Below are positions 2,272 through 39,872 of a stretch of 39,906 bases of DNA, piece after piece. The notes beneath the pieces were generated by a model. That model searched no databases. It was not told the DNA's origin and saw only the letters and a list, made by a program, of their open reading frames with translations. The stretch's first letter is position 1, and every line of letters begins with the position of its first letter. The position numbers and the translations under genes are program-made. The stretch is from a virus. The stretch is taken from IMG/VR virus record IMGVR_UViG_3300043431_000047, positions 1 through 39,906 of that record; one strand, given 5' to 3'.

Positions 2272-2304
2272 CTATCACAGATAAACAATCTAAGGGGAAC
2301 AAAA

Positions 2305-2760
2305 TTGCCATACATGACCAAGAAACCTCATGGAAACCTAGGAAGGAAAAATCCTCATGGCACGGTGGAGTACGGCAAGCTGACCCGCGAGGAGCAGTTG
2401 GCATATCACCGAGAGAAGAATAAAGCATATTATTTGAAACGTGTCGGGGCGCTTAAGCGGATTAGTCCTTTGGAAAACACACCAGAACGTATTGCACAAC
2501 GTGCACGAGATAAAGCAAATCTGCGAGCCACCCGTGCGAAACAAGCTAGATTTTATGACGAACTAACCGAGTTGGTTGTCAAAGAAGCCCATGCGCTTCG
2601 CAAGCTACGCAACGAAAAAACTGGGATTGAATGGCATGTGGATCACATAGTACCTTTGAGGGGTAGCGGGGTTTGTGGTCTTCATATTTGGAGTAATCTT
2701 GCAGTGATCCCCAAAGGTGATAATCTGCGTAAGGGGAACTATCATTCCGTACATGACTAA
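2305..2760 (+). CDS. HNH endonuclease, free-standing (first copy)
   Basis: The product is about 151 residues, with a basic helical N-terminal half and a C-terminal HNH nuclease domain: WHVDHIVPL with D113-H114, N131 in the middle, and PKGDNLRKGN at 136-145. Such free-standing HNH proteins act as homing endonucleases in phages. The start is uncertain: AAGGGG at 2292-2297 is seven bases from TTG 2305 but sixteen from ATG 2314. Positions 2292-2322 resemble 2731-2761, the ribosome binding site and start of the next gene, so this gene seems to carry a copy of its neighbour's start. Its K-G-N codons AAG GGG AAC form that neighbour's Shine-Dalgarno site. Confidence 0.85.
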   Translation: MPYMTKKPHGNLGRKNPHGTVEYGKLTREEQLAYHREKNKAYYLKRVGALKRISPLENTPERIAQRARDKANLRATRAKQARFYDELTELVVKEAHALRKLRNEKTGIEWHVDHIVPLRGSGVCGLHIWSNLAVIPKGDNLRKGNYHSVHD

Positions 2761-3052
2761 TGGAAGACGTGATTATAAAAAAGAAGAGGCTCGGTATGAA
2801 AAGAAACACCCAGAACGTGATGGTGCCAGAGCCCAGCGTAACCGAGCACGCGGACTTGTCGCAAAGAAAAAAGGCGTGAAACGTACAGCTATTGTCGGAG
2901 ATGTTGGGCATCGTAAGGCAGTAAGCAAGGGTGGGGCTAATGGCCTAGCTAACTTGTTTGTACAAAATCCAGGTCAGAATAGAAGCTTTTCCCGAAATAA
3001 AGATGGGAGCATGAAGAGTGAGCGAAGTAAACGAGAGTCCCGTAGAAAGTAA
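2753..3052 (+). CDS. Small HNH-like protein next to the terminase
   Basis: The 99-residue, very basic protein starts inside the last codons of the HNH gene. Its C-terminal half, GHRKAVSKGGANGLANLFV followed by QNRSFSRN, resembles small HNH-fold proteins found beside phage terminase genes, with the basic N-terminal part typical of that group. The first Asp-His pair expected of an active HNH is not intact here (VGHRK), so activity is doubtful. It may help packaging or be a decayed nuclease. The ATG at 2753 is sixteen bases from AAGGGG; an ATT at 2744 has the better spacing. The large terminase starts within its 3' end. Confidence 0.6.
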   Translation: MTNGRRDYKKEEARYEKKHPERDGARAQRNRARGLVAKKKGVKRTAIVGDVGHRKAVSKGGANGLANLFVQNPGQNRSFSRNKDGSMKSERSKRESRRK

Positions 3053-4571
3053 AGTAACACTAGATAAACACATTGTTGAGGGTTTCGTCGGTTCTTGTCT
3101 TACACCTTACTTCGACAACCCTGTTCCTTTTAAAGATTTTCATAGGGAGCTTTGGGAACTATGCACAGGCCCGGACCAGTTCGTAGCAGTGTGTGCTCCA
3201 CGGAGACACAGCAAGTCAACAACGGTTACAGTAAGTTATACGATGGCCGCTGCTTTGTTTCGCCAGGCGAAGTTTGTAATCATTGTGTCGGACACCGTAG
3301 CCCAGTCTGTGTTGTTCCTGGGTCAGATCAAACAGATCTTGGAGGACTCGAAACAAATTCAGTCACTATTTGGTTTGCCAGTGGATGAAAAGGGTTTAAT
3401 CTACGAGAAGTGTACAGAAGACGACATTATTGTAAAGTTTAATGATGGTCATAAGTTCCGCGTTATGGCCAAAGGTGCAGAGCAAAAGTTGCGCGGCTTA
3501 CTCTTCGAGGGTGCTCGTCCAGATTTGATTATATGTGACGACATACTCAACGAAGAGCTGGTTGCCAATAAAGATCGCCGTGAAAAGCTACGTAGATGGT
3601 TCTACGGTTCGCTGGTTCCGTGCAGATCCAAGGATGGTAGGTTGATTCTTGTGGGTACTCCAATGAATTTGGATGATATTCTAGAATCACTTATGCCATC
3701 AGAGAGAGCAAAGACAACTCATGTAGAAGACCTTAAGATCTGGTCAGAAAAGAAGTCTGGTATGTGGCGTACTATGAAGTATCGTGCACATAACGCTGAC
3801 TTTAGTAGGATCTTATGGCCAGAAATGCATAGCAAAGAGTCACTACAAGAACTTAGAACAGAGCTAACTGAACAGGGTATACCTGAAGTTTATTCCTGTG
3901 AAATGCTGTGTAATCCTGTGGATGACTCTATCCGCTACTTCCGCAAAACGGACTTCCTACCAATGACGGAGGAAGACAAGAAAAAGAATTTAACATACTA
4001 CATAACCGCTGACTTAGCGATTTCTGAGAAGGATCGTGCTGACTATACCGCAATTGTGGTAGGTGGTATGGACCATAACGGACAGTTACACATCGTACAT
4101 GTGATCAGGGATCGTATTGCCGGTGATGCTATCGTCGAAACGCTCCTTGCCCTACAAAAAACCTATGATCCACAGGCTGTGGGTATTGAGGATACACAGA
4201 TTTCCAAGGCCATTGGCCCATATCTCAACAGAGCTATGATGGAATCAGGCATTTATCTAAACATTGTACTACTTAAGCCACACCGCCAAGACAAAATCCA
4301 GCGTGCTCGTTCTATTCAAGCTAGAATGCGTGCGGGTCAGGTCAAATTTGACAAGGATGCTGATTGGTGGGACATTTTCTTTGATGAATGCCTGTCTTTT
4401 CCACGTGCTAAACACGATGACGTGGTTGATGCACTGTCTTATCAGGGTATATTGATTGATTATATGTCTGAAGGTATGACAAAAGAAGAAATAGACGACG
4501 AAGAATATGAAGACACTTACAATAAATCTGGCCATAGCGACTTAGGCCGTGACTCTTGCACAGGATACTGA
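3018..4571 (+). CDS. Terminase large subunit
   Basis: The 517-residue motor protein packages DNA into the prohead by ATP hydrolysis and cuts the concatemer. The N-terminal ATPase has a Walker A variant CAPRRHSKST at 59-68 and a Walker B, LIICDD, at 170-175. The C-terminal RNase H-like nuclease shows Asp332 in ITADLAIS, an acidic GIEDTQ near 390, and KHDDVVDAL with D467, D468 and D471. Length and order are normal. The start is a GTG with GGGAG eight bases upstream, 35 bases inside the preceding gene. The portal gene follows two bases after the stop. Headful packaging is plausible given the P22-like portal, but not shown. Confidence 0.93.
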   Translation: MSEVNESPVESKVTLDKHIVEGFVGSCLTPYFDNPVPFKDFHRELWELCTGPDQFVAVCAPRRHSKSTTVTVSYTMAAALFRQAKFVIIVSDTVAQSVLFLGQIKQILEDSKQIQSLFGLPVDEKGLIYEKCTEDDIIVKFNDGHKFRVMAKGAEQKLRGLLFEGARPDLIICDDILNEELVANKDRREKLRRWFYGSLVPCRSKDGRLILVGTPMNLDDILESLMPSERAKTTHVEDLKIWSEKKSGMWRTMKYRAHNADFSRILWPEMHSKESLQELRTELTEQGIPEVYSCEMLCNPVDDSIRYFRKTDFLPMTEEDKKKNLTYYITADLAISEKDRADYTAIVVGGMDHNGQLHIVHVIRDRIAGDAIVETLLALQKTYDPQAVGIEDTQISKAIGPYLNRAMMESGIYLNIVLLKPHRQDKIQRARSIQARMRAGQVKFDKDADWWDIFFDECLSFPRAKHDDVVDALSYQGILIDYMSEGMTKEEIDDEEYEDTYNKSGHSDLGRDSCTGY

Positions 4572-13066: not shown

Positions 13067-14818
13067 ATGTCATGGGCTTTTCAGCCCCTACTGCCTGGGG
13101 GTGCACAGCAGTTAAGTGGCTCCTTGGGAGCATATACATTAACTTGTTTAGGAGGATCATATAGTCTTACTGGTAGTAATGCTAATATAACTTTTGTTGG
13201 TATTAAACCAGAAGTTATTAGTACTACAACACTTGTGCTAGGGACAAGTGCAACGCCAGGTGCACAGGCAATTACGGTTCCTGCTGATGCTCAAGTTGTT
13301 GTTGTTACTTCCCGTAATTACTCTGCGTCAGGTGCAGATTTATCCCTGACAAGCAACTTTACTGGTACTTTTACTACCACACAAGATAGTAACGGTGGCA
13401 CAGAGAGAACGACAGTTTCACATGCTGTTGTTAGTAGTACAGGCTCTAAGACAATAACCCCTGTATGGACAAATGCTCCGGCAGAAGGTCCGTTGTTTTT
13501 TATCACATTCATAAAGAATGTAAATACCAGTGATTATTACAGAGCTTCAGATGCAATAGCATTAGATTCCTCTGGTAGCACTGCTTCAAGGACTGTTGCT
13601 TCAACGGCTAATGATCTTGTACTGGCTCTTGAAAGCCATTATGATGCTGGTCAAGCAATACCTGGAACTGTTTCTGGTTGGACATCAATATCAACTCAGG
13701 GCAATAATTCTGAAGGTGGTAGGTTAAGTACAGCGGACTCGCCTGGTGCAAGCACAACAACCTTCACTGGTGGATCTACAAGTTATGATGGTGTTTCCAT
13801 CATAGCAATTAAACCAAATGTTGGAGGTGCTTATACACTTACCGCACAAGGTGGTTCTTACACATTAACAGGATCTAGTGCTGTACTCAAACGTAGCAAG
13901 TACTTAGCTGCTTCCGGTGGTTCATATACGCTCACAGGTGCGCAGGCTGTAATAACCTATACACCAACGGCTGCTAACTATTCTTTTATTTTGTCTGGTG
14001 GTAGCTACACACTAACTGGAGCTAGCGCAACACTATCTAGGAATAGAAAACTCACGGCTAGTGGTGGTGCCTATACCATAAGCGGTGCTAACGCGACTCT
14101 GTTACGATCCAAGCGCATTACTGCTAATGGCGGTTCTTACACTGTTTCTGGTGCTAGCGCAAACCTGCGCAGGTCTCATTTGTTGGTTGCTCAAGGTGGT
14201 GTTTATACATACACTGGGCAGCAAGTAACAATTACATATACAGCAGGGGCTATTAATTATACCCTGACTTGTAATGGTGGTTCCTATGTAGTAAATGGTG
14301 CTTCTGCCGTACTTAGTCGCAATAGGAAATTAACTGCCTCTAGTGGTTCATACTCTGTAACGGGCGCTTCTGCCATTCTATCTAGAAATAAGAAGCTAAC
14401 AGCAAGTGGTGGTAGTTACACTGTTACTGGTGGTACAGCTACTTTACTTAGGTCTAAGGTACTTACCCTACAAGGTGGCTCATACAACCTCACAGGTGCC
14501 TCTACTACACTACTGAGGAGCAAAGTTCTTGTCGCTTCTGGTGGTGTTTATAGCTTAGCTGGGCAGTCAGCAATCCTTAGTCGTAACCGGATGCTTGTAG
14601 CTCTTAGTGGTTCTTATAGTTACCAAGGATCTAGTGCTATAATAACAAAAACCTCTGCCGGTGGTTATCCAGCAGAAGAAGATGTGTTACTCGGAGTTGT
14701 TTATGGCGCTAGTGGGGAATACACAGGTACTCTAGATATTGGTAAGAAGTTTAGAATTGACATAGCAACAGGGAATATAGTTATGATTATTGATGAAGGT
14801 AAGGTGATGTCGCTATGA
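13067..14818 (+). CDS. Repeat-built surface protein, adhesin-like
   Basis: The 583-residue protein contains about thirteen copies of a unit close to A-S-G-G-S-Y-T-L-T-G-A-S-A-x-L-x-R-x-K-x-L-T. One copy is near residue 28, and twelve run from about residue 258 to 525. Most are 22 residues (66 bp); two are longer, with a YTPTAANYSF-type insertion. Residues about 45-245 form a separate non-repeat domain, and the end (DIGKKFRIDIATGNIVMIID) is another. The regular Gly-Tyr-Thr pattern suggests stacked beta structure on the virion. It lies between the GC-rich pair and an HNH gene, in the fibre region. A host-binding or stalk role is inferred. Confidence 0.6.
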   Translation: MSWAFQPLLPGGAQQLSGSLGAYTLTCLGGSYSLTGSNANITFVGIKPEVISTTTLVLGTSATPGAQAITVPADAQVVVVTSRNYSASGADLSLTSNFTGTFTTTQDSNGGTERTTVSHAVVSSTGSKTITPVWTNAPAEGPLFFITFIKNVNTSDYYRASDAIALDSSGSTASRTVASTANDLVLALESHYDAGQAIPGTVSGWTSISTQGNNSEGGRLSTADSPGASTTTFTGGSTSYDGVSIIAIKPNVGGAYTLTAQGGSYTLTGSSAVLKRSKYLAASGGSYTLTGAQAVITYTPTAANYSFILSGGSYTLTGASATLSRNRKLTASGGAYTISGANATLLRSKRITANGGSYTVSGASANLRRSHLLVAQGGVYTYTGQQVTITYTAGAINYTLTCNGGSYVVNGASAVLSRNRKLTASSGSYSVTGASAILSRNKKLTASGGSYTVTGGTATLLRSKVLTLQGGSYNLTGASTTLLRSKVLVASGGVYSLAGQSAILSRNRMLVALSGSYSYQGSSAIITKTSAGGYPAEEDVLLGVVYGASGEYTGTLDIGKKFRIDIATGNIVMIIDEGKVMSL

Positions 14819-15315
14819 GCAAAAATCATTATGTATCTGGTGATTGGAATATTACCAAGTGCTGTTCTGTTTGTAAAGAAGAAAAGTCTTTAGACAACTT
14901 CTATAAACAGGTGGATGGTAAATGTGGTGTTGCTTCTCGTTGTAAACCCTGTTTATTAGAAGCAAATAAGAAACATATGAAACCAGAAAAACAGAAAGAA
15001 TACACGGAAAACTGGCGAAACAAAGCAAATAATCGAGAGCTGTCTAGACAAAGCACCAGAACATGGAGAAGAAATAATCTACCTTATGATGCTTTTCGTG
15101 CTGCCACATATAGAGCAGAAAAAGCAAAACGTACTCCAAGTTGGTCTGACCTTCCTAAAATAAAAGCTTTGTATTTAGGTTGTCCTATAGGTTTCCATGT
15201 AGATCATGTTATACCTTTACGTGGTAAACTAGTCTCAGGATTGCATGTTGAAAATAATCTTCAGTATCTTCCGGCACAACATAATTTAAGCAAGAGGAAC
15301 ATATACCATGTCTAA
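14815..15315 (+). CDS. HNH endonuclease with zinc finger (second copy)
   Basis: The 166-residue protein has an N-terminal four-Cys zinc finger (C16/C17, C20, C43, C46), a basic helical middle, and an HNH domain: FHVDHVIPLRG with D130-H131, and QHNLSKRN at 155-162. It is a free-standing, probably homing-type nuclease. Its first 14 residues, MSKNHYVSGDWNIT, closely match the start of the next gene (MSKNYYVSGEFNVT), so it appears to carry that gene's original start. Its K-R-N codons, AAG AGG AAC, form the Shine-Dalgarno site of the next gene, whose ATG lies in its last His codon. Confidence 0.85.
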   Translation: MSKNHYVSGDWNITKCCSVCKEEKSLDNFYKQVDGKCGVASRCKPCLLEANKKHMKPEKQKEYTENWRNKANNRELSRQSTRTWRRNNLPYDAFRAATYRAEKAKRTPSWSDLPKIKALYLGCPIGFHVDHVIPLRGKLVSGLHVENNLQYLPAQHNLSKRNIYHV

Positions 15316-15595
15316 GAATTATTACGTTTCCGGCGAATTCAATGTGACATGCGATGTATGTTCTAGGAAGATAAAAGCCTCAGAGTCCAGACAGCGTTGG
15401 GATGGTTTCCGTGTCTGTCTGGATGACTGGGAACCGCGACACGAACAGGACTTTGTGAGGGCTAGACAGGACAAGATCTCAGTACCATTCACAAGACCAA
15501 TCCCAACATATGTTTTTACAACTGTTGATTATATCCTATACTGGGATTCGGGATATTCAGTAAGTGGATATGTAACAGGAGATGATTTACTATGA
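15308..15595 (+). CDS. Small zinc-site protein of the fibre region
   Basis: The 95-residue protein has a likely metal site, CDVC at 15-18, with another Cys at 37 (FRVCLDDWEPRHEQDFVR). The WEPRHxQDFVR pattern is shared by small proteins encoded before tail fibres in many phages. The start, eight bases inside the HNH gene, uses AGAGGA from the HNH coding sequence. The last ATGA is shared with the fibre gene. Function unknown; a virion or fibre-assembly role is likely by position. Confidence 0.7.
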   Translation: MSKNYYVSGEFNVTCDVCSRKIKASESRQRWDGFRVCLDDWEPRHEQDFVRARQDKISVPFTRPIPTYVFTTVDYILYWDSGYSVSGYVTGDDLL

Positions 15596-39419: not shown

Positions 39420-39872
39420 TTATTCTAGGTTAAGAATATTTTTAGCAAATATAAGTAATTCTTGCTGTGTTGCATTTTGTTTCATTATGTTTGCTTTTCT
39501 TGAAATAATTTGAATGTTTCCAGGGATATAGCCTTTTGTAGAATCTATTCTATCTATAGAGGCATTAGACCAAACTACTCCATTATTTCTTGTTTTTGTT
39601 AGTTCAATATTTAGATATGAACAATGTGTTGGTATTATAATATCCGATAGCGTAATTGTGTGTTCTATGCCAAGTTTTCTAGCATGTTGAATACTAGAAT
39701 AAAATAAAATACGTTCAAAATTCTTTTCAGCTTTTATACCTTTATTTAGTTTCGCTAATTTTGTAAGTCCCTTTTCTTTTGCTTTTTTAAGTATGGTTTC
39801 TTTATTTTGAATATAATATTGTTTTCTATACTCCTTTAAGTGCTCTTTGTTGTTATCCTGCCAGATAGTCAT
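39420..39872 (-). CDS. HNH-type endonuclease, free-standing (third copy)
   Basis: The 150-residue protein has a basic helical start (LKEYRKQYYIQNKETILKKA). Its C-terminal pattern ends in ASIDRIDSTKGYIPGNIQII and RKANIMKQNAT, typical of phage HNH proteins that lack the classical zinc ribbon. It is probably a mobile, homing-type nuclease. AGGA lies six bases before the ATG. It is the first gene of the leftward block. Unlike the other two HNH genes, its start does not resemble that of the gene after it. Confidence 0.75.
   Translation of the reverse strand: MTIWQDNNKEHLKEYRKQYYIQNKETILKKAKEKGLTKLAKLNKGIKAEKNFERILFYSSIQHARKLGIEHTITLSDIIIPTHCSYLNIELTKTRNNGVVWSNASIDRIDSTKGYIPGNIQIISRKANIMKQNATQQELLIFAKNILNLE

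Follow-up and report, generated by a model that had tools for sequence, protein, structure and literature searches.

Probable capture of a neighbouring gene's start by a free-standing HNH endonuclease gene in a viral genome

The seg and mob genes of T4 are free-standing phage homing endonuclease genes that spread by intronless homing; where mob and seg genes overlap a neighbour, it is the upstream gene, and their nucleases cut at a distance of hundreds of bases or more (PMC2988022). In the split-gene insertion of mobE in Aeh1 nrdA, the target becomes two polypeptides (PMC2988022). Fungal mitochondria contain mobile open reading frames (ORFs) with terminal duplications, in Allomyces atp6 and in Glomus atp6, atp9, cox2 and nad3 (PMC3630166). 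We found no N-terminal version of a duplicated-end mobile ORF in the open-access literature, and start capture at a target's 5′ end is apparently undescribed so far, free-standing homing endonucleases being the closest known kind.

Here we analysed a window of 39,906 bases (IMG/VR virus record IMGVR_UViG_3300043431_000047, positions 1 to 39,906), in which HNH gene 1 is probably a free-standing homing endonuclease gene at the exact 5′ end of the next gene, g99, having captured g99's start and supplied a new one. Directly visible in the sequences are the start copies, an exact junction, a patchy distribution, a pair of occupied and empty sites (L087/L083) and an instance at another target (HNH gene 2 and T2).

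A repeated gene start around HNH gene 1

The neighbourhood consists of a possible small terminase (weak matches), a lysozyme, a holin with three transmembrane segments, HNH gene 1, g99, the large terminase and the portal (Table 1). The HNH gene 1 product matched endonuclease VII in PHROG (E = 4e-11) and, weakly, Pfam HNH (E = 0.058, under the Pfam cut-off), and H108, D110, H111, N128, N137 and N142 are invariant in its family (alignment A1). The predicted product thus has the HNH catalytic residues and, as judged from these matches, belongs with the phage endonuclease VII/HNH families. The g99 family is likewise one of small HNH-like proteins: Pfam HNH was matched by 11 of 24 relatives, and an invariant H, N and N are retained. 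Neither HNH1 nor g99 had a significant match in fold searches, with structure models only moderately confident; against solved structures, the HNH family profile had no match and the g99 profile weak HNH matches only (E about 0.07). A third, short HNH-like ORF lies near the right end of the window (39420-39872, minus strand).

Table 1 Features at the two nuclease loci of the window
Feature	Positions	Strand	Remarks
First copy, g99-type start	2292..2322	+	Shine-Dalgarno AAGGGG followed by TTG-CCA-TAC-ATG; at present the start of HNH gene 1
HNH endonuclease gene 1	2305..2760	+	151 codons from TTG 2305, 148 from ATG 2314; first codons copy the g99 start
AAG GGG AAC, conserved K-G-N of HNH tail	2731..2739	+	Putative double role as g99 Shine-Dalgarno
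Second start copy	2731..2761	+	Likely g99 start codon ATT 2744-2746; HNH stop TAA 2758-2760 inside g99 start
g99 target gene	2744..3052	+	102 codons from ATT 2744, 99 from ATG 2753; PHROG 4590; before large terminase
Large terminase subunit	3018..4571	+	Approximate start
HNH endonuclease gene 2	14815..15315	+	First 14 codons (MSKNHYVSGDWNIT) copy the next gene's start
AAG AGG AAC, K-R-N of HNH2 tail	15292..15300	+	Likely Shine-Dalgarno of T2
T2 target gene (MSKNYYVSGEFNVTCDVC...)	15308..15595	+	Start codon overlaps HNH2 stop (CATGTCTAA)

The first-pass annotation had reported two copies of a gene start, at 2292-2322 and 2731-2761, agreeing at about 23 of 31 bases; both are present there, as AAGGGGAACAAAATTGCCATACATGACCAAG and AAGGGGAACTATCATTCCGTACATGACTAAT, with 23/31 bases identical. 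The pattern AAGGGGAAC-N13-ATGAC has these two sites only in the window, even allowing 2 mismatches, where 0.21 sites are expected with up to 2 mismatches and at least two occurred in 1 of 100 shuffles of the window. The best match to the first copy anywhere in the window is the second copy. With distance left free, 23/31 matches are not rare (166 overlapping positions in the window), and the unusual feature of the repeat is its placement on two adjacent gene starts, not the identity itself.

Start copying was counted across 90 HNH genes, 10 directly before g99 and 80 relatives elsewhere. An MP[YF][MQ] start was found in 7 of the 10 versus none of the 80 (p = 1.6e-8); L086 has a further copy, stranded before its HNH gene, and two HNH genes at g99, in L003 and L150, lack the copy. 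L103 was not counted as adjacent to g99, its supposed g99 match being its own HNH domain. The copy at g99 is short, 4-7 codons (for example, MPFMKNG in L015, MPFMTN in L036 and MPYMKN in L112), and beyond it the HNH genes continue with either of two N-terminal domains that are unrelated to each other. Across the loci examined, the g99 type of start was confined, as a real gene start, to g99 and the HNH genes preceding it. As a general rule of the HNH family, start copying was rejected (permutation over 28 HNH/next-gene pairs, p = 0.29 for protein and 0.11 for DNA). A scan of genome contigs for HNH relatives gave 6 loci only.

Two ribosome sites and the HNH K-G-N codons could also have come to look alike by chance, with no insertion at the start. 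Matches of this quality at any distance are not rare in the window, and AAGGGGAAC in the second copy is coding sequence that, read in the HNH frame, gives K-G-N, a motif common in HNH tails; because of this, convergence rather than duplication may explain the AAGGGGAAC part of the repeat. We nevertheless regard convergence of the whole repeat as quite improbable, since the copy extends to the protein level (P-Y-M), is site-specific, and recurs with HNH gene 2 and T2 at 10/14 residues; the L087/L083 pair, described below, also weakens this reading.

Occupied and empty sites

The HNH gene at g99 is optional and patchy, and does not follow the phage tree. On the terminase tree, its presence required 6 changes for 6 HNH-bearing phages, all forced by supported branches, and 7 HNH proteins from g99 sites form one clade (SH-aLRT 95). 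Scattered presence on the terminase tree, set against the single clade that holds most HNH proteins from g99 sites, indicates that the gene moves. A single initial insertion may lie behind all seven clade members, which therefore do not count as seven independent events. The genes upstream of the target differ among occupied sites (holin, small terminase or tail gene), and endonuclease VII-type genes occupy the g99 slot in L021, L022 and L133.

Within a single clade the start could simply be inherited, and MPYK starts occur in other HNH genes (L103, L138 and L203). A start that is a trait of the HNH family, unlinked to g99, is however very improbable: it is missing in the 80 HNH genes elsewhere, and L015 and L087, which lie at g99 and outside the clade, share it with differing nuclease or N-terminal domains. 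L015 has the N-terminal domain of the window's HNH1 and a different nuclease domain.

The annotation had predicted that HNH-free relatives would carry one AAGGGGAAC start joined directly to g99. Single starts joined directly to g99 were indeed found, but AAGGGGAAC as such was not, as their Shine-Dalgarno sequences vary. HNH-free L083 is the sister of HNH-bearing L087 on the terminase tree, and its g99 begins where the HNH gene begins in L087. The DNA before the L087 HNH start matches that before the L083 g99 start at 77% of 146 nt, with the match ending within the start (ATGCCAT). The first ~110 nt of g99 align poorly between the two and the remainder much better. The new g99 5′ end can look foreign, as in L087, rather than a simple copy of the old one.

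The first copy overlaps the small terminase end in L036, L143 and L086, as the g99 start does in HNH-free relatives. In L086 it is the old start, stranded as a 14-codon ORF before the HNH gene, and this ORF overlaps the small terminase gene as in HNH-free L041 and L033. The L087/L083 pair and the overlap with the small terminase end in L036, L143 and L086 therefore make the first copy the old position and the second start the newer one. The annotation's proposal that the HNH gene inserted at the g99 start, took over the old start and left a second one accordingly agrees with L087/L083, with L086 and with the 7/10 versus 0/80 count; it needs amending in that the new 5′ end can look foreign.

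The opposite order would have the HNH gene inserting upstream of an intact g99 start, with the second copy as the native ribosome site plus ATT and the first copy added later by recombination or duplication. The opposite strand of the L087 contig (L115) does have an ATT-type leader, AAGGAGAACTAAAATTCCTTACATG, with no nuclease, and the endonuclease VII-type genes of L021 and L133 end in the same ATT-type leader. This order appears unlikely, given that the first copy is at the ancestral position, the small terminase end, in L086, L036, L143 and L087.

Insertion at the start, our preferred reading, extends to the window by comparison: its own empty site is inferred, as the holin relatives included no phage that lacks the HNH gene and has this holin next to g99. 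A small ORF at 2268-2423 overlaps the holin stop and reads SKGNKIAIHDQ across the first copy; it resembles an HNH tail and could be the relic of an earlier nuclease end. About 600 bases, possibly an intron, interrupt the large terminase reading frame of L017 and L030, and the L017 insert holds a 144-codon ORF.

Predicted start codons and ribosome sites of the target gene

The start codons first assigned, ATG 2314 and ATG 2753, are probably not those used. Among relatives, g99 starts read ATG/TTG/GTG/ATT-CCN-TAY/TTY-ATG or CAR, and because the corresponding protein start M/I/L-P-(Y/F)-M is conserved, TTG 2305 probably starts HNH gene 1 and ATT 2744 g99, both 9 bases upstream of the assigned codons. 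ATT with a Shine-Dalgarno sequence at constant spacing precedes g99 in nine contigs, and an ATT g99 start is predicted for the window, L003, L017, L021, L022, L086, L112, L133 and the minus strand of L087; on the L087 plus strand the predicted codon is ATA. Some ATT contigs have only four codons open upstream of the ATT, and the internal ATG is the sole ordinary start there, which further argues for ATT 2744. AUU initiation at g99 is thus a prediction from comparison alone, in a phage gene family. AUU is the non-canonical start codon of E. coli infC (PMC5472188); as in infC, the predicted g99 ATT start stands behind a good Shine-Dalgarno sequence. A search with the AUU-start pattern gave 29 matches, 20 of which were rejected as belonging to an unrelated conserved sequence in which the ATT opens no long reading frame. 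The predicted AUU starts are of a kind that standard gene finders miss.

Non-ATG g99 starts accompany an upstream nuclease: pairs independent of each other on the terminase tree split 6-8 to 0 (median p = 0.016). A weak g99 start may protect the site from the nuclease, or it may trim g99 expression. In L202, a tail-fibre-like gene right after an HNH gene also seems to start with ATT (ATT-CCA-ATC-TAT, IPIYRGDGG), where relatives have ATG or TTG.

The conserved protein motif K-G-N may double as a ribosome binding site. In 31 HNH genes ending in K-G-N, the next gene starts 7-8 nt past the KG codons in 11 and at 11 nt in one more; in those 12 the Gly codon is always GGA or GGG, compared with 7 of the remaining 19. 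Under the first definition of K-G-N as a Shine-Dalgarno sequence, p was 0.026 (0.13 excluding g99 sites); a purine-wobble test of the Gly codon, chosen post hoc, gave p = 0.0004 (0.006 excluding g99 sites). In L137, a Sphingomonadales contig, the HNH gene opens with MTDTLSKTAE and its downstream neighbour with (TTG)TESLTKTAG, the K-G-N codons AAGGGGAAC being the likely Shine-Dalgarno sequence. L137 appears to show the HNH gene 1 design at a third target.

A second target, a possible mechanism and known systems

The start of HNH gene 2, MSKNHYVSGDWNIT-KCCSVC, and that of T2, MSKNYYVSGEFNVT-CDVC, are identical at 10 of 14 residues; their N-terminal score is 55, the next best of 4278 start pairs in the window being 19. 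The HNH2 tail has its K-R-N (AAGAGGAAC) close to the stop. T2 directly follows the tail gene in relatives L241 and L242, and another nuclease lies at the T2 position in L238, L246 and L248. L246 has its old T2 start stranded, as 36 codons ahead of the nuclease, and after the nuclease a full T2 that is a divergent allele. By all these likenesses, the putative nuclease HNH gene 2 repeats the design of HNH gene 1 at another target.

Under the favoured reading, the first codons of HNH gene 1 would be the old g99 start, translated from g99's original ribosome site, while the K-G-N codons AAG GGG AAC would serve as the new Shine-Dalgarno sequence for g99 and the overlapping ATT-CCG-TAC-ATG in the HNH tail as its second start. 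The putative nuclease would cut phages that lack the HNH gene close to where g99 begins, with repair then copying in the HNH gene plus the 5′ end of the donor's g99. The brief start copy with which the HNH gene opens could serve as a portable left homology arm; this would account for a junction at the start codon even though the upstream genes differ. More tentatively, and with somewhat less than even confidence, we propose start-site capture as a wider strategy, in which nuclease genes of at least two families, HNH and endonuclease VII-type, home to the start codons of small genes with a left-arm copy, a K-G-N ribosome site and an often weakened target start (ATT, ATA, TTG or GTG) that protects the site or trims expression. 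The locus suggests a way in which a free-standing homing gene can enter a coding gene at its start and leave it active, and a reason why genes of this kind can jump between phages with different upstream genes. It also offers a search rule: a nuclease N-terminus that copies the next gene's N-terminus could reveal homing targets by sequence alone.

Like T4 seg and mob (PMC2988022), HNH gene 1 stands alone between conserved genes, is optional, has overlapping frames and is scattered on the phage tree. Unlike them, it would capture the 5′ end of the downstream gene, with nuclease codons supplying the ribosome site. As with mobE in Aeh1 nrdA (PMC2988022), a nuclease gene lies in a coding region without killing its function, but g99 would stay whole through its second start; splicing, by group I intron or intein, would be unnecessary because g99 has a complete frame and its own start after the insert. 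The closest parallel in logic is with the mitochondrial mobile ORFs (PMC3630166), where the element also brings a replacement for the interrupted end and the target stays usable, the old end is stranded and the brought end looks foreign. There the duplication is C-terminal, whereas here it concerns the N-terminus and a new start, in DNA phages. The HNH/g99 design, as read from these sequences, is a mirror image of the mitochondrial C-terminal type, working alike without being classed as one with it.
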